A DNA stretch of 64,000 bases. It comes from Bacteroidaceae bacterium. Lineage in GTDB: Bacteria; Bacteroidota; Bacteroidia; Bacteroidales; Bacteroidaceae. The stretch spans positions 20,352 through 84,351 of the forward strand of contig JAGCPY010000061.1 of assembly GCA_017965425.1 (NCBI GenBank), read 5' to 3'. Both the position numbers and the translations under genes were made by a program. Below, piece after piece: positions 4,928 to 37,010 of this stretch; positions within the stretch are counted from its first letter, which is position 1, and the number at the start of each line of letters is the position of its first letter. The notes beneath the pieces are model-generated. The model did no database searches and was not told the DNA's origin. It saw only the letters and a program-made list of their open reading frames with translations.

Positions 4928-4949
4928 AGAAGTTTGAAGGTGAGGGATT

Positions 4950-5037
4950 GGTGAGGAATAGGTGAGGGATGGTGAGGGATTGCGTTTTTTCTGGATTTCA
5001 AATGCAATCCCTCACCATCCCTCACCTATCCCTCACC
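4950..5037. repeat. Large inverted repeat of tandem GGTGAGGGAT words
   Basis: The arms 4958-4983 and 5004-5029 are perfect reverse complements over 26 bp. After a single mismatch pairing continues for 8 more bp, giving a 34-bp stem (4950-4983 with 5004-5037) around a 20-nt loop. Each arm contains two abutting GGTGAGGGAT units. More copies of the word lie outside at about 4893-4906, 4937-4949 and 5084-5102. Confidence 0.9.
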
Positions 5038-5159
5038 GAAGTCTCACCTGTAAATACCTGAGAAACAACAAAGTAAAGCAAGAGGTGAGGGATTGAGGGA
5101 TTATTGATGAAAAATACAAGGATAGAGGGTGGGTGAAACCATGATTTGACAATCTGTCT

Positions 5160-30467: not shown

Positions 30468-31709
30468 TTACTGACGTGCAGCGAGGTCTTCGAAGATCTT
30501 CCAGACGTTGAGGAGGCCACGAGGAACGTGGAAGCAGCCTTTCCACTTGCCGCCCTTGAGGGGCAGCAGTACTTCGCCCTGACGGTTGAGATAGCCGTAC
30601 CACTCGGGATATTCGGTATCGCGGAAGTGGGTCCATGTGTAGTCGTGGACACGCTGGAACCATTCGAGGCATCGCTGGTCGCCTGTGAGCTGGTAGCCTT
30701 TGATGAGTGAGATGAGTGTCTCGAGGTGTACCCACCAGAGCTTCTGGTCGAACTCGAGCTCATGACGGGGTTTGCCGAGGCGATCCATGAAATAGAAGAC
30801 GCCGTCGTACTCTTTATCCCATCCGTACTCCACTTCTGCGAGGCAAATATCGACGGCTTTCCTGATGAGCTCGGGACGGTTCATGCGCTTGCCGAGGTCC
30901 ATGACGAACCACATGGCTTCGATGGCATGTCCGGGGTTGAGCTTGCGACCGTCGAAACTGTCCACGAGGTTTCCATCCTTGCCGAGGGCTTCGACGATGA
31001 GGCCTAGTTCGGGACGATAGAAGACATCCATGACTTCGTGCAGGCAGTCGTCGATGGCTTTCTGCAGGAAAGCGGGTTCGAGCAGGGGTTCTATTTCCAG
31101 AGCGACGTTGCAGAGGATCATGGGGAGGTCGAAGGTCTTCAGGGCTCGTGCACCAGGAGAGGCTTTGCTCCAGCGGCCTTTGGGGTTGTCGGTCTTGGAG
31201 AGGACGATGTCGAAGGTGCGCTTGGCGATAGAGGCGTATTCGGCAGAGAGGGTATCTGCGGCGATGGAATCGCCGCACACACTCACCGCAGAGAGGCCAC
31301 TCTTGGCGGCTGTGGCGAGGGCGATGGAGAGTTGTCCGAAGGCGATGACGGCGAAGGTGTAGGAGAAGATGTTATAGGGTTCTACGAGGGGATGGCCTTC
31401 GCGATCGAGGGCAAAGTACCAGTTGAGGTTGCCATCGTGTCCGTATTTCTTGAGGAACTCGGCACCCTGAATGGCGGCATCGAGCCACTCCTGCCGGGGC
31501 TCTACGGTGTTGTAGAGCTTGGAGAACATCCACACCTCACGGCCTTGCAGCCAGATGAACTTGTCGGTGTCGTAAACGCTGCCGTCGCGGTCGAGGCAGG
31601 TGAAATAGCCGCCGAAGTCGAGGTCCTGGGACTTGTTGAGCCAGAAGGGGACGACGCGGTCGAGGAGTTCAGAGCGATATTGCTCTGCTAATTGTTTGAA
31701 ATCTACCAT
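30468..31709 (-). CDS. N-acylglucosamine 2-epimerase (AGE/RenBP family)
   Basis: 413 residues of the (alpha/alpha)6 barrel family. Recognised from FWLNKSQDLDFGGYFTCLDRDG, KFIWLQGREVWMFSKLYN and LNPGHAIEAMWFVMDLG; H in PGHAIE and RPRHELEFDQKLWWVH are active-site positions. Converts ManNAc from NanA cleavage to GlcNAc. It is the downstream end of the nan operon, separated from the transporter gene by the GxxExxY element. Cellobiose 2-epimerase is a related activity, but the nan context favours ManNAc. Confidence 0.9.
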   Translation of the reverse strand: MVDFKQLAEQYRSELLDRVVPFWLNKSQDLDFGGYFTCLDRDGSVYDTDKFIWLQGREVWMFSKLYNTVEPRQEWLDAAIQGAEFLKKYGHDGNLNWYFALDREGHPLVEPYNIFSYTFAVIAFGQLSIALATAAKSGLSAVSVCGDSIAADTLSAEYASIAKRTFDIVLSKTDNPKGRWSKASPGARALKTFDLPMILCNVALEIEPLLEPAFLQKAIDDCLHEVMDVFYRPELGLIVEALGKDGNLVDSFDGRKLNPGHAIEAMWFVMDLGKRMNRPELIRKAVDICLAEVEYGWDKEYDGVFYFMDRLGKPRHELEFDQKLWWVHLETLISLIKGYQLTGDQRCLEWFQRVHDYTWTHFRDTEYPEWYGYLNRQGEVLLPLKGGKWKGCFHVPRGLLNVWKIFEDLAARQ

Positions 31710-31730
31710 ATAGTTTCTATTTATAAAGAA

Positions 31731-31917
31731 GTTAATAATTAGTTTTCACATAAATTCGAGACATAAATTATTCATGAATTCAAGACATAAATTATATAAT
31801 GGTCTGTATTCATCATCTTAGAGTTAATAATTTGTTTTTACATAAATTCGAGACATAAATTATTCATGAATTCAAGACATAAATTATATAATGGTCTGTA
31901 TTCATCATCTTAGAGTT
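31731..31917. repeat. 92-bp tandem duplication holding 18-bp iterons
   Basis: 31731-31822 is repeated at 31823-31917 with period 92 and only two substitutions seen near the start. Each copy holds two 18-bp units AATTCRAGACATAAATTA at 31753, 31777, 31845 and 31869, 24 bp apart within a copy. The same units occur inverted on the other side of the GxxExxY gene. Confidence 0.9.
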
Positions 31918-31927
31918 GGGATGGGTT

Positions 31928-32407
31928 TTAGTGAGTAAGGGAGAAACGTTGATAGTCATCATCTTGAGGTTCACTATCAGCAGGATAAAGGAAATCCATG
32001 TTTCGGTCAAGCAATATACATTCATTTGTCTCATGAATATAGGCATAGCGCTCACCCTGTAATGATGGACGTCCGAAATTGAGGAGTAGTCCTATAGGCG
32101 AAAGGGTTAGTCTCATATAGTTAAAGAGCTGTGCCCTATGAGCAGGAATGATATCTGATGTAGCTTTCAACTCAACCATTACATCTCCAACCAACAAATC
32201 TGTCCGATAGGTTTTGTTCATCCTACGGCCTTTATAATAGCAAGGCAATTCAACCTCTTGCTGGCTGGGAATACCCATTGATTCCAATTCCATCTGCAAG
32301 GCTTCAGCATAAAGAGCTTCTAATAGTCCCCAATTCAATTCCTTGTGGACTTTTAACGCAGCTCCAATAATGCTATATACGATATCTTTATACTCCTTGG
32401 GATTCAC
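31928..32407 (-). CDS. GxxExxY family protein (PD-(D/E)XK-like)
   Basis: 159 residues, close to the family's usual 120-150 plus a short tail. The name-giving motif is GLLEALYAEAL at about 27-37. A PD-(D/E)XK-like core follows: YRTDLLVGDVMVELKAT gives D and E-x-K. QLFNYMRLTLSPIGLLLNFG is the usual final block. The family function is unknown; a nuclease is suggested by the fold (PDDEXK_3). The gene lies between inverted repeats within the sialic-acid operon, which points to an inserted cassette. Confidence 0.9.
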   Translation of the reverse strand: MNPKEYKDIVYSIIGAALKVHKELNWGLLEALYAEALQMELESMGIPSQQEVELPCYYKGRRMNKTYRTDLLVGDVMVELKATSDIIPAHRAQLFNYMRLTLSPIGLLLNFGRPSLQGERYAYIHETNECILLDRNMDFLYPADSEPQDDDYQRFSLTH

Positions 32408-32412
32408 AATAC

Positions 32413-32459
32413 TAATTCATGTCTTGAATTCGTGAATAATTCATGTCTGGAATTCGTGT
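32413..32459. repeat. Right inverted repeat of the GxxExxY element
   Basis: On the minus strand it holds two 18-bp units, AATTCCAGACATGAATTA at 32454-32437 and AATTCAAGACATGAATTA at 32430-32413, matching the left iterons with R = G in place of A. It begins 6 bp upstream of the GxxExxY start. Confidence 0.85.
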
Positions 32460-32468
32460 AAAATAATT

Positions 32469-35400
32469 CTATTCCTTGGGCAGCGTCTTCCATGTGAGTC
32501 CCTTCTGCTCTTCTCTCTGAGGCATGAAGATGCTGAGGATGAGGGCTACGAGGACGCTGACGAGCATGGAGACGAAGCCGAAGAGGAGGAAGTTGGCCTG
32601 GGTGCAGAAATTCATGTAGAGGACGGTGGCTGTGCCACAGAGGAAACCGATCATGGCAGCTCTGGAGCCAATGCGCGGGAAGAAGATACCCATCATGAAG
32701 AGACCGCCGATGGCACCGCTGAGGAGGCCGAGGATGGTGTTGAAATAGTCGAGGAGTGACTGTATGTCCACGGTGGCCATGAGCCAAGCGATGGCCATGC
32801 CGATGAGGCCTGCACAGATGCCTGCGATGCGGGCGGTGCGGACGGAGGTATCGCCGGCAGAGGAAGCGCCGGACACACTCTTGGCGGCTTTCTTCCATTT
32901 CGACCAGAGATCCACGGTGAAGGCGGTGGAGATGGAGTTAATGTTGGAGGCGATGGTGGACATGGTGGCAGCAAAGACGGCTGCGATGAGTAGCCCTGCA
33001 AGGCCTGCGGGTAGCTGGCTCATCATGAAGAAGGGGAAGATAGCATCTCCCTTGGCCATGGTGATGTCGAGTTCGGCAGGATGGGTCTTGAAGAAGGTGT
33101 AGAGGCCTGTGCCGATGGTGAAGAAGGCGATGGTGACGACGACGGACATCAAGCCATTGGTCAGGATGCCGCGGGCAGCACTCTTCTCGTCGGAGGTGGT
33201 GAGGTAGCGCTGGATGACAGTCTGGTCGCTGGTGTAGGAGATGAGGTTGTTGGCCAGGCCTCCGAGGATGACTACCCACCATGTGGCATTGACGAAGTCG
33301 AAGGGATTCTCTGCATCGAAGAGGAAGAGACGGAACTTGTCGTGGTCGGTGGCAATCTGCCAGAAGTCGGAGGCTCCGTTCTCGCCTGTATTCACGATGA
33401 GATAGACGGCGGCGAGGATGGCACCTCCCACGAGGATGATGCCCTGGATGACATCGCCCCAGACGACGGCTTCGACACCGCCCATGGTGCAGTAGAGAAT
33501 GGTGATGAGGGCCATCAGGGCTATACATATATAAATATTGATGCCTGTGACGGCGGTCATGGCCAAGGATGGCAGGAAGAGGACGAGAGCCGTGCGTGCC
33601 ACCATGAAAACGATGAAGAGGATGGAGGCCATGAGACGGGTGGCGCTGTTGAAACGACGCTCCAGGTACTCGTAGGCGGTAGTGACGTTCAGGCGACGGA
33701 AGAAGGGCAGATAGTAGCGTATGACGGGGAACGAGACGAGCAGGATGCAGATCTGCATGGGATAGTAGGTCCAGTCAGTAGCGTATGCCTTGGCGGGAAT
33801 CGACATGTAGGTGATGGCGCTGAGCATGGTGGCGAAGATGCTGATGCCTGCAGCCCACCAGGGGATGCGTCCGCCGCCCTTGAAGAAGTCGTCGCTGGAG
33901 TTCGAGGCACGGCGCATGAAGTAGTAGCCGAGATACACCATGCCGAGGAGATAGAGGATGAGGACTGTCCAGTTGAGCCATCCGAAGTGAGCGGTGTATG
34001 AGATATCGACGCGTGTGACATCGGAAGAACGGACACCGGGTTTCTCTTCACCTCCGACGACGATGGCAGAGAGGGAGGAGCTTCCTGTTCCAGACGGAAC
34101 AGGCACTACGGCCGCACCGGCACGGGCGATGAGGGGACTGTCGAAGAGCTCTGCCCAGGAGTCGGTGACGGTGTGATAGACGAGGATGCTGCGACGGAAG
34201 CGATACCATGCTGGCTGCTGCGTCATGTAGGTATGTGCCTCTTCGCGGAGGGCTTGAAGACGGTCGGCAGCGGTAGCCGTGTCTGCGAGGAGGGCGTTGC
34301 GCTGCAGGGCAGTCTCGAAAATGGCTTTGTTCACGCCACCGAAGCAGAGGATATGAGCGGCACCGGAGGGGATGGCAGAGGCACCTACCAAGGCGAGGAC
34401 ATCAAGACTCGCTTCCTGCCCCATTGTCTGGGGGAGAGCCTCACTCTCGTTTGAACATGGGAGGTGCTGGGGCTTTGCCATCAGTGATGTGGGCAGCCAC
34501 TCTCGTTTCCTCGTGTCGTAATAGACACCATTGGCGACGGCTTTGCAATAGCGTGGGTCGAAGCCACCGAGGAGGTAGAAATTGGAGCCTAAGGCACCTT
34601 TCTGTACGACGGCACAGGGCTGCACGCGTGCAGGACCGGGCATCTCGGGCAGCTCTTCCCACGCGGCACCTGTCTGGGCCTCAAACCATGCGGCAGGCAA
34701 TGGCCATTTCAGGCGGAAGGCTTGGCGATTGATGATGCCATTATGCTGACCTCCGGCGATGTAGATGAAGCCATCACCATAAGCGGCGGCAAAATTGTCG
34801 AGGGCGACGGGGAGAGGGGGAAGATCCTGGGACTGCAGCTGTCCTGCCTTGGTGAAGGAGAGGAGGACAGCGAAATCTTCGCTCTTCTGCCCGTCGGCCG
34901 TACCGCCGAGGCAGACGACACCCTCGGGAGTGGTGACGCTGGCGCCATAGGCGAGGGCACAAGGGAGGGAGCCAACGCGCTGCCAGGCAGCGCCTGGGGA
35001 GGAGAGAGCCGCCCCGGCGGAAAAACCGCCGGGCACACTACCAGCGGCGGAGGCAGAAGCAGAAGCGCCGCACGCAGAAGCAGAGGCAGAAGCGGAGGGG
35101 GCAGAACCAGAGGCAGAAGCAGAAGCGGAGGGGGAAGCGCCGCACGCAGAAGCAGAGGCAGAAGCGGAGGGGGAAGCGCCGGAAGCAGAAGCAGAAGCGG
35201 CAGAACCAAAAGCAGAAGCGGAGGCAGAAGCGATGTCGAGGACATAGATGTCGGTGTAGAAGGCTTTCTGACCGCCGTCTGCGGCAGGGATGCCGGGGAA
35301 GTTACAGCCGCCTGCTATGAGGATGCGACCTGCGGTCTGACCTGCGAAGGCACCACTGACGCCTTGACCGCCAAAGGCGGAGAGGGCTGGGATGGGTAGG

Positions 35401-35558
35401 AATGAGACGTCGTTGAAGCGATGGGACTCTCCCGTCACGACTGCAGGTTCACCCCCCTGCCCCTCCCTCGCAGGGAGGGGAGTAGTATCGTTTGCTGATG
35501 AAAAACTTGCTATGAGAATCGCCAGAGCGAAAAGAGACATGATTTTTTTCATTATCAC
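32469..35558 (-). CDS. Sialic-acid mutarotase (kelch) fused to a sodium:solute symporter
   Basis: 1029 residues. A signal peptide (1-22) precedes a NanM/YjhT-like kelch propeller to about 510 (ILIAGGCNFPG, YIAGGQHNG, YLLGGFDPRYC, VVGGEEKPGV), of the cyclically permuted mutarotase type. An SSS transporter with 13 or so helices follows from about 520 (HFGWLNWTVLILYLLGMVYLGYYF, GGRIPWWAAGISIFATMLSA, NLISYTSDQTVIQRYL). Inferred job: mutarotate sialic acid outside and import it with Na+. Residues 109-185 are an Ala-Ser-rich insertion in the propeller, and residues 29-37 (PAREGQGGE) are encoded by a palindromic repeat. Lies between nanA and the epimerase. Confidence 0.93.
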   Translation of the reverse strand: MIMKKIMSLFALAILIASFSSANDTTPLPAREGQGGEPAVVTGESHRFNDVSFLPIPALSAFGGQGVSGAFAGQTAGRILIAGGCNFPGIPAADGGQKAFYTDIYVLDIASASASAFGSAASASASGASPSASASASACGASPSASASASGSAPSASASASACGASASASAAGSVPGGFSAGAALSSPGAAWQRVGSLPCALAYGASVTTPEGVVCLGGTADGQKSEDFAVLLSFTKAGQLQSQDLPPLPVALDNFAAAYGDGFIYIAGGQHNGIINRQAFRLKWPLPAAWFEAQTGAAWEELPEMPGPARVQPCAVVQKGALGSNFYLLGGFDPRYCKAVANGVYYDTRKREWLPTSLMAKPQHLPCSNESEALPQTMGQEASLDVLALVGASAIPSGAAHILCFGGVNKAIFETALQRNALLADTATAADRLQALREEAHTYMTQQPAWYRFRRSILVYHTVTDSWAELFDSPLIARAGAAVVPVPSGTGSSSLSAIVVGGEEKPGVRSSDVTRVDISYTAHFGWLNWTVLILYLLGMVYLGYYFMRRASNSSDDFFKGGGRIPWWAAGISIFATMLSAITYMSIPAKAYATDWTYYPMQICILLVSFPVIRYYLPFFRRLNVTTAYEYLERRFNSATRLMASILFIVFMVARTALVLFLPSLAMTAVTGINIYICIALMALITILYCTMGGVEAVVWGDVIQGIILVGGAILAAVYLIVNTGENGASDFWQIATDHDKFRLFLFDAENPFDFVNATWWVVILGGLANNLISYTSDQTVIQRYLTTSDEKSAARGILTNGLMSVVVTIAFFTIGTGLYTFFKTHPAELDITMAKGDAIFPFFMMSQLPAGLAGLLIAAVFAATMSTIASNINSISTAFTVDLWSKWKKAAKSVSGASSAGDTSVRTARIAGICAGLIGMAIAWLMATVDIQSLLDYFNTILGLLSGAIGGLFMMGIFFPRIGSRAAMIGFLCGTATVLYMNFCTQANFLLFGFVSMLVSVLVALILSIFMPQREEQKGLTWKTLPKE
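35045..35235. repeat. Low-complexity tract encoding an Ala-Ser linker
   Basis: About 190 bp of GCAGAAGC/GGAGGC-type hexamers on the plus strand. A 39-bp unit at 35063-35101 recurs exactly at 35135-35173 (period 72, in frame). Encodes residues of the form ASPSASASASACG inside the kelch domain. Confidence 0.9.
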
Positions 35559-35701: not shown

Positions 35702-36628
35702 TTATTTATTGCAATGATTGAAGAAGTCGATGGCTTCGAGTTCTTTGCGAAGCTGCACTTCCTCCTCGGGCGTAACGTTTTGGAAGGGTGTGCGGTTGGG
35801 TCCGAGGTCAAGTCCGATGAGCTTCATGATGCGCTTTCCGCCCACGATATTGCCACGGAAGTGAACGATGACGTCGATGACATCCTGTGCGTAGTTCTGC
35901 AGTTCGCGAGCCTTCTCGAGGTCGCCTGCCGCCCATGCTTCCTGTATGCCTACGAGGCAACGGCCGTTGTAGTTGGTGGTGCCTCCGATGCCACCCTGTG
36001 CACCGCCCATGGCGAGGCATGGAAGGATGGTCTCGTCCTGACCATGGAGCATATCGAACTTTCCGTCTTTATAACGGCGGCATCTGTTGTACTCGTAGAG
36101 GCTCTCGAAGGTATATTTGATGCCGGCGAAGTTGGGGATGCGCCCATCGACAGCGCCGAGGAAGTCGTACATGGAGAGGAACGCGCCGTTGAAGGCGGGG
36201 ATATGGTAGAAATAGAAGGGCAGTTGTGGTGCTCCACAGGCGATTTCCTCGCAATATTTTGCGAGTTCCTCGATACGGCCAACCTTAGGGAAGGGAGGTG
36301 CCATGGCACCGATTCCGAAAGCTCCGATAGCCTGAGCGTGCTCGGCCAGTTTACGGCTGCTGCGCACACAAGTGCTGCCGACATGCACGATGACTTTGAA
36401 GTCGTCCAACGCCTTTGTAGCGTCCATCCAAGCCTCTGCGATCTGCTTGCGCTCGTCCTCGGTCAGCATATAGCCTTCGCCGCTGGAACCATTGATAAAC
36501 ACGCCTTTAAGTCCGTTGCGATGCAACAAAGCAGCGTATTCGGGGATGATGGAGAGATTGATGCTGCCATCGGCGTGCATCGGAGTAAAGGGGGCGTCGA
36601 TGAGGCCCTTGATTTTCTCGAACTTCAT
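35702..36628 (-). CDS. nanA: N-acetylneuraminate lyase
   Basis: 308 residues of the DapA/NanA class I aldolase family. GSSGEGYMLT at 48-57 is the carboxylate loop, YHIP with Y141 supplies the catalytic Tyr, and K171 in FAGIKYTF is the Schiff-base Lys. Cleaves sialic acid to ManNAc and pyruvate. The context with the symporter/mutarotase and epimerase supports NanA over dihydrodipicolinate synthase. First gene of the operon, with a well-formed promoter upstream. Confidence 0.94.
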   Translation of the reverse strand: MKFEKIKGLIDAPFTPMHADGSINLSIIPEYAALLHRNGLKGVFINGSSGEGYMLTEDERKQIAEAWMDATKALDDFKVIVHVGSTCVRSSRKLAEHAQAIGAFGIGAMAPPFPKVGRIEELAKYCEEIACGAPQLPFYFYHIPAFNGAFLSMYDFLGAVDGRIPNFAGIKYTFESLYEYNRCRRYKDGKFDMLHGQDETILPCLAMGGAQGGIGGTTNYNGRCLVGIQEAWAAGDLEKARELQNYAQDVIDVIVHFRGNIVGGKRIMKLIGLDLGPNRTPFQNVTPEEEVQLRKELEAIDFFNHCNK

Positions 36629-36760: not shown

Positions 36761-36967
36761 GTGACTTTGTGACATGTGACTTTGTGACATTAAGGACTTC
36801 CCGACATCGAAAAAAGGTTCTCGCAGCATACGGCACTACCAACGTACCATAAAACTGCTAAGATATAAGTTATTATTATATATGATATAATAATAAAATT
36901 CTATTCCAACTCTTTTTCCCACTATTGGAACCCCTTAATGTCACAAAGTCACATGTCACAAAGTCAC
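36761..36967. repeat. 207-bp element with 35-bp perfect inverted ends
   Basis: 36761-36795 and 36933-36967 are exact reverse complements. Each arm contains GTGACTTTGTGACAT twice in tandem. The 137-bp interior includes a perfect 12-bp AT palindrome (36870-36881 with 36885-36896, 3-nt loop). No coding capacity. Confidence 0.92.
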
Positions 36968-37010
36968 AGCGGAGAGAATGTGTCGTGGTGTGCAAAATGC
37001 AGCACTATTA

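Follow-up and report, generated by a model that had tools for sequence, protein, structure and literature searches.

A GxxExxY nuclease gene between inverted arrays of its own repeat: a probable REPIN/RAYT-like miniature mobile element in Bacteroidaceae

What is a small nuclease-like gene, framed by inverted copies of a repeat, doing between two genes of a sialic-acid operon? The question is raised by the segment at 31.7–32.5 kb of a 64,000-nucleotide stretch of a Bacteroidaceae genome (contig JAGCPY010000061.1; hereafter, the window), in which a gene of GxxExxY, a named protein family without known function, lies between a sialic-acid symporter gene and an epimerase gene. Our analysis indicates that this segment is probably a two-part miniature mobile element of the REPIN/RAYT kind, with a PD-(D/E)XK nuclease in place of the HUH transposase. 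The case is strong for the association of gene and repeat arms and for mobility over evolutionary time, and we infer that the enzyme acts on the arms. The architecture itself is real and general and, to our knowledge, has no prior description; the literature searched, with subscription papers mostly outside it, yielded no description of the arms or repeat units of GxxExxY genes.

The repeats are as the initial annotation had described them, four 18-bp units left of the gene and two, inverted, to its right. The 18-mer AATTCRAGACATRAATTA lies at 31,753, 31,777, 31,845 and 31,869 on the plus strand and at 32,413 and 32,437 on the minus strand, the last with one mismatch; at up to three mismatches it has 6 matches in 64 kb, against a mean of 0.18 and a maximum of 2 in 100 dinucleotide shuffles. 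The inner left arm and the right arm are complementary over 51 nucleotides (Table 1). Each 18-bp unit is a pair of 7-bp cores (CAYGAAT/CATAAAT) 11–13 bp apart, and the upstream arm, read in gene sense, runs CACGAAT-6-CATGAAT-4-CACGAAT-6-CATGAAT, that is, with spacings of 11 or 13 bp; the window arm is better described as four 7-bp cores than as 18-bp units. These cores fall in a wider class, C-R-Y-N-R-A-(G/T/A). The 92-bp tandem duplication reported on the left is likewise present, its halves 98% identical, yet it is single-copy in G048 (L129), which carries the same element with the same arms and is the sole such relative read. The duplication therefore lies outside the basic element, and it probably arose in the window's lineage. 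An Rfam scan of the window returned no family at gathering score.

Matched inverted arms are frequent at GxxExxY genes. For each PF13366 gene we took the two 300-bp flanks, found their best inverted match without gaps, and compared its score with those of flanks drawn from different loci; the genus threshold was the 95th percentile of 254 mismatched pairs (14.7). All five PF13366 genes of the window's own genome (G000) have inverted arms, of four arm types, scoring 15.5–40.5. For the genus, 73 loci were retained, leaving out 10 of 83 PF13366 matches that were all partial or very weak, and 65 of these had full flanks, the other 8 lying at contig ends; 50 of the 65 exceeded the threshold and 23 the highest mismatched score, with means of 18.9 for matched and 9.4 for mismatched flanks. 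A class sample gave 19 of 30 loci over threshold (7 above the highest mismatched score). A wider sample, mostly Bacteroidota and made up of the best 80 of 560 confirmed stretches less 6 with short flanks, gave 53 of 74, with 3 above a highest mismatched score that reaches 33.5 because mismatched pairs there can share a unit type. Within the wider sample, 16 of 21 loci outside Bacteroidota or unnamed were over threshold, a subset spanning Nostoc, Geobacter and other Desulfobacterota relatives, SAR324, Planctomycetota, Lentisphaerae, Opitutae, Ignavibacteria and Margulisiibacteriota; the single archaeal locus (L214) scored below it. Within one genome, G151 (17 loci covering 18 of its 19 PF13366 matches), 15 of 17 loci exceeded the same-genome mismatched 95th percentile, with a matched mean of 18.7 and a mismatched mean of 10.1, and random 400-bp inserts in the window gave a mean of 8.8 and a maximum of 13.5 (n = 384).

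Because matched flanks exceed mismatched ones, even within one genome, the arms belong to the gene rather than to the genome, and they are mostly private to each GxxExxY gene. To the question whether each GxxExxY gene carries the same inverted ends, the answer is that matched arms are frequent and that the repeat differs from gene to gene, and the proposal that one common enzyme mobilizes such cassettes in trans is disfavoured because elements within one genome carry different arms. For some loci the match start was mis-set (L039 and L170, identity 0), which left scores unaffected, and such rows were dropped where arm letters were used; the start codon was set to the candidate closest to the family match, which clips or extends L001, L005, L291 and some others. 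GxxExxY genes were co-directional with both neighbours, judged by the longest nearby frames, at 34 of 73 loci in the genus and at 63 of 110 in the broad sample.

At other GxxExxY genes the commonest core form is C-R-C-A-R-A-K (CACAGAG, CACAGAT, CGCAAAG, CGCAGAT; also CACGAAT and CATGAAT), spaced most often by 9 bp and overall by 8–14 bp. Chains of at least three cores occur in 49% of 216 broad and 21% of 141 genus GxxExxY flanks, against 5% of flanks of four-helix-bundle genes (n = 59), 2% of far flanks of the same genes (n = 337), 2% of random window pieces (n = 600) and 0.3% of shuffled flanks. Since this pattern was picked after inspecting the arms, the match-based comparison is the independent one.

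Mobility of the unit over evolutionary time is well supported by comparisons among sites. We compared arms and proteins of 134 elements with an arm score of at least 14.5 out of 196 put in, thinning pairs below 35% identity and leaving out L291, L294 and L302 (G151) and the duplicate L158. Among elements at different sites, arm similarity climbed with protein identity, from 0.24 (<35%) to 0.62 (at least 75%; 5967 pairs, rho 0.28). Two elements at unrelated sites of G151, L291 and L295, encode 93% identical proteins and have 483 bp in common (90% identity); on one side this stretch extends about 11 bp beyond the arm, on the other it stops at the arm's outer edge, and the DNA farther out is unrelated. 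We also compared 37 additional pairs of elements at different sites whose proteins are at least 70% identical; in the 35 that gave a usable match, common DNA reached no more than 42 bp beyond the arm edge, as placed from one member of each pair. This lends weak support, because only 4 of the 35 have more than 10 bp in common beyond the gene on each side. As a separate observation, several G151 elements (L289, L292, L288, L293) have just outside them a further common motif like TTGTTACT..CAGG, which may be a target or another repeat.

The junction beside the epimerase gene (nan junction) differs among relatives in a way that fits gain and loss of the unit. We read 26 of 30 nan loci, among 90 genomes with the epimerase gene, plus G042 (L104). 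The full element is present in G000, G048, G134 and G042; arms without a gene remain in G112, G126 and G060, and in G040, where the opening codons of the gene are left as a stub in addition; and a gap of 8–34 bp is all that lies there in G018, G029, G041, G033 and G007, the empty site that a mobile cassette had led one to look for. The gene occurs without repeats only once in the 26 nan loci, as a fragment (amino acids 81–141; G011, L139). The remaining loci hold other sequence, including, by reading, a remnant of arms of four-helix type in G099. The G134 arms are unlike those of G000 in sequence, yet complementary to each other, and G040 carries a second full element 3.2 kb from the epimerase gene, on the same strand and directly behind the end of the lyase gene. 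The cassette of the initial annotation accordingly survives as a gene-plus-arms unit that comes and goes and is found at unrelated sites in relatives; it is no one-off, being a common GxxExxY architecture. At the nan gap beside the epimerase start, six relatives (L122, L124, L126, L127, L128, L137) carry a different, GC-rich inverted element of CCCTCCCTGTGAGGGAGGG type.

A second junction, between korA and korB, which from their translations we take to encode subunits of a 2-oxoacid:ferredoxin oxidoreductase, was read at 30 loci of 109 genomes with korB. It holds a GxxExxY element in 9, a four-helix-bundle gene in 3, apparent arm remnants only in 3, a gap of 5–43 bp in 14 and a contig end in 1. 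The four-helix-bundle genes here have GTTAAGAGTTAAG-type arms, that of G024 being a PF05635 match and those of G121 and G131 assigned by sequence reading. Fitch counting put the changes of junction state at 15 for the epimerase tree (25 genes) and at 11 for the korB tree (29 genes); each tree rests on a single gene, every type of filling entered the count, a mixed 'other' state among them, and interspecies transfer would inflate the numbers. The cores of 17 kor GxxExxY elements are mostly ACAGATT, ACGAATT or ACGGATT, and both arms have the same commonest variant in 15 (L267 is a tie, L040 mixed). In the protein tree L046 and L267, with ACGAATT, are nested within ACAGATT carriers, so at least there the cores of both arms changed together. 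Arms of one element were more alike than arms of same-site relatives in 144 of 182 kor comparisons, on a measure that leans toward this outcome. The gene sits at the kor site in many species, yet G151 holds pairs of 91–93% identical copies at different sites.

Two further arrangements were noted at other junctions. On contig C18 of G029, GxxExxY and four-helix genes stand at successive gene junctions. In what reads as a polysaccharide-type operon (L083, L085, L095), the genes flanking a GxxExxY element are swapped in order between G051 and G029/G005; we rejected a simple inversion of this element because the flanking genes are order-swapped, not inverted. Carriage of close relatives of the window protein on plasmids or phages was also considered and rejected, as one query each gave 8 of 72,556 plasmid records and 0 matches among 50,697 phage records.

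The window protein belongs to GxxExxY, as initially annotated (PF13366, 9.9e-34, 116.6 bits against a cut-off of 22; TIGR04256, 5.7e-36, 123.4 bits against 35), and the profile search returned only these two families and no transposase domain. Across 16 sequences, E30, Y33, D70, E79, K81, Q93 and Y97 (window numbering) are invariant, and no cysteine is; these residues are consistent with a PD-(D/E)XK active site that is intact and has what we take to be the QxxxY motif. An AlphaFold2 model (pLDDT 91.5) predicts a Cas4/lambda-exonuclease-like fold, in agreement with the PD-(D/E)XK-like core that the initial annotation gave for GxxExxY proteins. A fold search with the model ranked 4ic1 first (E 3.6e-4), whose record says SSO0001 and which we take to be a Cas4 protein, followed by lambda exonuclease, RecE and LHK-Exo at E 0.035–0.38 with some unrelated folds among them; TM-scores of 0.33–0.43 are low, so this places the fold and not the function. 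A profile comparison also matched T7 endonuclease I, a junction resolvase, at E 0.012 and 0.042; we rejected it as the nearest relative, since the fold search ranks Cas4 and lambda exonuclease first. The ratio dN/dS was 0.03–0.21 in the 12 of 18 related-copy pairs for which it was computable (dS above 1 in 6 of the 12), indicating purifying selection that would keep the protein for its activity.

For two related unit types, arrays are more numerous in genomes that carry the gene family. We counted ACGAATT arrays (three cores, up to 2 mismatches) in 61 genus genomes; these counts and those of ACAGATT arrays include the gene's own arms and are uncorrected for relatedness. Genomes that have a GxxExxY gene at the kor site (13) hold 5 to 78 (mean 29.5), the 20 genomes without a PF13366 match a mean of 0.75 (maximum 5) and the other 28 a mean of 7.8, and the reversed pattern has 3 matches in total. 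Among the matches listed, from six genomes, neighbouring arrays no more than 250 bp apart were inward-facing in 31 cases, outward-facing in 0 and in tandem in 25, and 22 of the 31 inward pairs start 49–84 bp apart, which leaves no room for a gene and makes these gene-less hairpins. ACAGATT arrays number 167 in G018 and 50 in G048, both of which carry a gene with ACAGATT arms, and 17, 16 and 14 in G040, G053 and G038; the 20 genomes without PF13366 hold 3 in all, and the reversed pattern is absent. The window's unit, CAYGAATTCNAGACAT (up to 1 mismatch), occurs in 44 of 121 genomes, mostly as 1–2 matches, with 8 matches in all for the reversed pattern; it is abundant in G043 (43), G087 (22), G000 (9), G139 (7) and G015 (7), and six of the G000 matches make up the element and three a gene-less hairpin on contig C30. 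Repeats without a nearby gene do occur for the window's own unit (G043, G087, G139 and the one hairpin of its own genome), but the two related unit types that we counted form hardly any gene-less arrays in genomes lacking the gene family.

Taken as a REPIN/RAYT-like element, the unit would span about 0.5–0.7 kb and consist of a stand-alone GxxExxY nuclease gene between inverted arrays of 3–4 of its own cores. A gene copy would persist at a site under purifying selection, and arms, as well as gene-less inverted arm pairs, would spread to other intergenic sites. The nuclease may bind its own phased cores, either in duplex DNA or in a hairpin that a single strand forms during replication or repair, and the inverted arrangement would let it cut or trim the ends; repair would then copy the whole unit, or the arms alone, to another intergenic place, and would sometimes duplicate an arm with its flank and keep both arms alike. 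Duplications of this kind include the 92 bp of the window, a 65-bp unit present twice with a partial third copy (L002) and a 164-bp step (L001). We infer recognition and cutting of the arrays by the GxxExxY nuclease; the element's own protein is the favoured recognizer because the private arms vary with the protein and not with the genome that holds them.

The closest parallel is REPIN/RAYT, in which a lone enzyme gene lies between inverted copies of the repeat that goes with it, inverted doublets without the gene are scattered between other genes, and a genome may hold several distinct pairs and tandem clusters (PMC3116915, PMC3733652). The GxxExxY gene is similarly flanked by inverted copies of its own repeat, and gene-less inverted doublets occur in gene-holding genomes for two related unit types, the picture for the window's own unit being mixed (one in G000, eight in G043). 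The enzyme differs, being of a PD-(D/E)XK family (PF13366) and not an HUH/Y1 transposase (PF01797), as do the repeats, which are chains of 7-bp cores rather than a single imperfect palindrome of 20–40 bp, typically tagged GTAG. PF01797 genes are separate from GxxExxY, and two that we inspected, including a RAYT-like gene of the window's own genome, carry other repeats. In 23S rRNA intervening sequences a small gene likewise lies between inverted arms, with a sporadic distribution and a mobility described as unresolved (PMC4990558). Elements of that kind (PF05635) share the korA–korB junction with GxxExxY elements; the GxxExxY protein is unrelated and not a four-helix bundle, its array period differs, and the elements here are not in rRNA. 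BrickBuilt of Porphyromonas gingivalis, a miniature inverted-repeat transposable element with no confirmed gene and with ends compared to those of insertion sequences (PMC4596501), is also intergenic and miniature with inverted ends and tandem repeats, but the GxxExxY arms are gene-specific. Unlike insertion sequences and DNA transposons, the GxxExxY element of the window has no known transposase domain between its arms. The predicted fold, PD-(D/E)XK core and invariant E, D, ExK and QxxxY residues are shared with Cas4, lambda exonuclease, RecE and RecB-type nucleases, from which GxxExxY differs in being a minimal single domain without an invariant cysteine and in having its gene inside its own repeat arms. 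PD-(D/E)XK homing endonucleases are also small selfish nuclease genes; GxxExxY differs from them in lacking an intron or intein, in its intergenic sites and in its inverted arrays at both ends. A further paper mentions GxxExxY next to a reverse transcriptase (PMC8934634).

Several observations weigh against the REPIN/RAYT-like reading. The strongest, against the resident nuclease as only driver, is that G043 (97% complete) holds eight gene-less hairpins of the window's unit, seven of them with a conserved spacer, which face outward, opposite in polarity to the gene-bearing element, and only one PF13366 gene, which has other arms; none with window-type arms was found. Gene loss after spread would explain these hairpins. 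In G087 (70% complete), no PF13366 gene was found despite 22 unit matches. The unit variant also matches the gene loosely, not strictly: G026 (86) and G038 (65) are rich in ACGAATT arrays without a kor-site gene, ACGGATT-armed genomes hold 14–78 ACGAATT arrays, the ACAGATT-armed G029 and G015 hold just 12 and 5 ACAGATT arrays (G015 alongside 33 of ACGAATT), and G040 and G053, without ACAGATT arms at kor, exceed two of the four ACAGATT carriers. Scores fell below threshold at 15 of 65 loci in the genus, 11 of 30 in the class and 21 of 74 in the wider sample, where the archaeal locus is one of them, and only the 23, 7 and 3 loci given above surpass the highest mismatched score. Away from kor, arms of one element were more alike than those of same-site relatives in 4 of 6, 2 of 2, 0 of 12, 0 of 2 and 0 of 2 comparisons, by a measure biased toward within-element matches. 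At the nan site no target-site duplication was visible by eye, among relatives that are too diverged. Finally, four-helix-bundle (PF05635) genes show the same gene-between-arms architecture, so the nuclease fold is not needed for it. These genes (L048–L077, L117) have inverted arrays with periods of 7, 14 and 21, and among 27 loci (4 of 31 left out for short flanks at contig ends) 23 exceed the mismatched 95th percentile and 18 the highest mismatched score; host enzymes may do part of the work in both kinds of element. A RAYT was rejected as owner of the G043 hairpins, since G043 has only a partial PF01797 match (positions 24–80 in a 469-amino-acid frame). Separately, G087 contains what read as nested hairpins, outward window-type arms around inward arms of the G134 nan type (L341, 1049–1330 and 4430–4790).

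The alternative that survives best, itself unlikely, is that the arms are ends for another trans-acting host enzyme, such as a transposase, recombinase or retroelement, and that GxxExxY is their cargo. The G043 hairpins without a cognate gene would suit a passenger cassette, as would the architecture shared with the non-nuclease four-helix-bundle family, which also occupies the korA–korB junction in three other genomes. Most elements within one genome differ in their arms, however, as the G151 means show, so that no single enzyme would recognize all of them; the arms track the encoded protein, array styles differ by protein family (a lag of 9 for GxxExxY against 7, 14 and 21 for four-helix genes), and the RAYT-like PF01797 gene of the window's own genome has its own, different repeats.

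Next in order, and improbable, is a resident repair or defence nuclease that does not move: cutting beside its own gene would grow the arrays, and break repair would duplicate and homogenize the arms. Tandem duplications with a period of at least 30 bp are indeed commoner near the gene, where 10 of 136 genus flanks have one, than in far flanks (2 of 131) or in window pieces (3 of 291), and both the shared core variants of kor arms and the low dN/dS are what a resident enzyme would lead one to expect. Against it stand the same gene-plus-arms unit at unrelated sites, even within one genome, the nan and kor junctions that are empty in many relatives, and the dispersed gene-less pairs.

Selection on RNA, with the arms kept as a transcript stem that RNase III removes, is very improbable. 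Folded as RNA, the element gives a long stem (z −5.9 relative to 20 shuffles), but any inverted repeat folds well, so the score by itself is no evidence; a precedent exists in 23S rRNA intervening sequences, which have a four-helix-bundle open reading frame between inverted ends and are cut by RNase III (PMC4990558). Differences between arms are unbiased toward G–U pairs (113 compatible against 112 incompatible transitions in 121 elements), which disfavours an RNA stem and suggests that the arms act as DNA or stay alike through DNA exchange. A defence or toxin–antitoxin gene that lies by chance in repeat-rich intergenic DNA is the least credible explanation: one of three proteins scanned with PADLOC (L023) weakly matches Cas4 (8.2e-4), the window protein and L002 giving none, but the arms match the flanked gene rather than its neighbourhood or genome, and the phage records hold no match to the window protein.

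The coordinates of the element and of its neighbours, whose placement around the GxxExxY gene on one strand profile matches confirm, are collected in Table 1. The adjacent genes encode nuclease, symporter, epimerase and lyase, not a replication initiator or origin, and lend no support to calling the repeats iterons in the plasmid-replication sense.

Table 1. Features of the GxxExxY element and its genomic context in the window
Feature	Position	Strand	Basis or remark
GxxExxY gene (PD-(D/E)XK nuclease family, 159 amino acids, GTG start)	31928..32407	-	Open reading frame and family profiles, invariant residues, AlphaFold2 model
Arm upstream of the GxxExxY gene (gene sense), four 7-bp cores CACGAAT/CATGAAT	32413..32463	-	Repeat comparison
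Downstream arm of the GxxExxY gene, inner copy, inverted relative to the upstream arm, 88% complementary	31836..31886	+	
Downstream arm, outer copy, 86% complementary, in first half of tandem duplication	31744..31794	+	
92-bp tandem duplication (arm plus 3' part)	31730..31913	.	Single copy in relative G048
N-acylglucosamine 2-epimerase gene (context)	30468..31709	-	Profile match
Sodium:solute symporter gene with NanM-like part (context)	32469..35558	-	Profile match
DHDPS/NanA-family lyase gene (context)	35702..36628	-	Profile match

Other features of the window were noted in passing. In the gap upstream of the NanA-family gene (36761–36968), two 15-bp units GTGACTTTGTGACAT have an inverted copy about 150 bp away with no clear gene between, the layout of a gene-less miniature element. 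Inverted arrays of GGTGAGGGATT lie at 4939–5105, and similar to them is a 52-bp inverted pair around 507 bp, likewise with no clear gene, on another contig of the same genome (L014). A low-complexity Ser/Ala-rich stretch with tandem repeats of 12–72 bp occurs inside the long symporter frame (35053–35232), and the segment 25383–28991 holds methylase-like and specificity-like genes of a type I restriction kind, separated by a phage-antirepressor-like frame, all named from sequence reading only.

A broader reading, which we advance tentatively as possible rather than probable, is that a Cas4/lambda-exonuclease-like nuclease of about 120–160 amino acids together with its own phased arrays may form the smallest autonomous unit of such mobile DNA, present in several phyla and attended by dependent swarms of gene-less hairpins, and that four-helix-bundle elements, including the 23S rRNA intervening sequences, may be of the same kind with another protein, both competing for the same operon junctions. 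If the REPIN/RAYT-like reading of the window element is true, the GxxExxY family would gain a function, intergenic repeats such as CACAGAG, CGCAGAT, ACGAATT and their kin would gain an owner, and mobile DNA would gain a class built around a stand-alone PD-(D/E)XK nuclease. It would then also become testable whether the intervening sequences of 23S rRNA are mobile elements built in this way.

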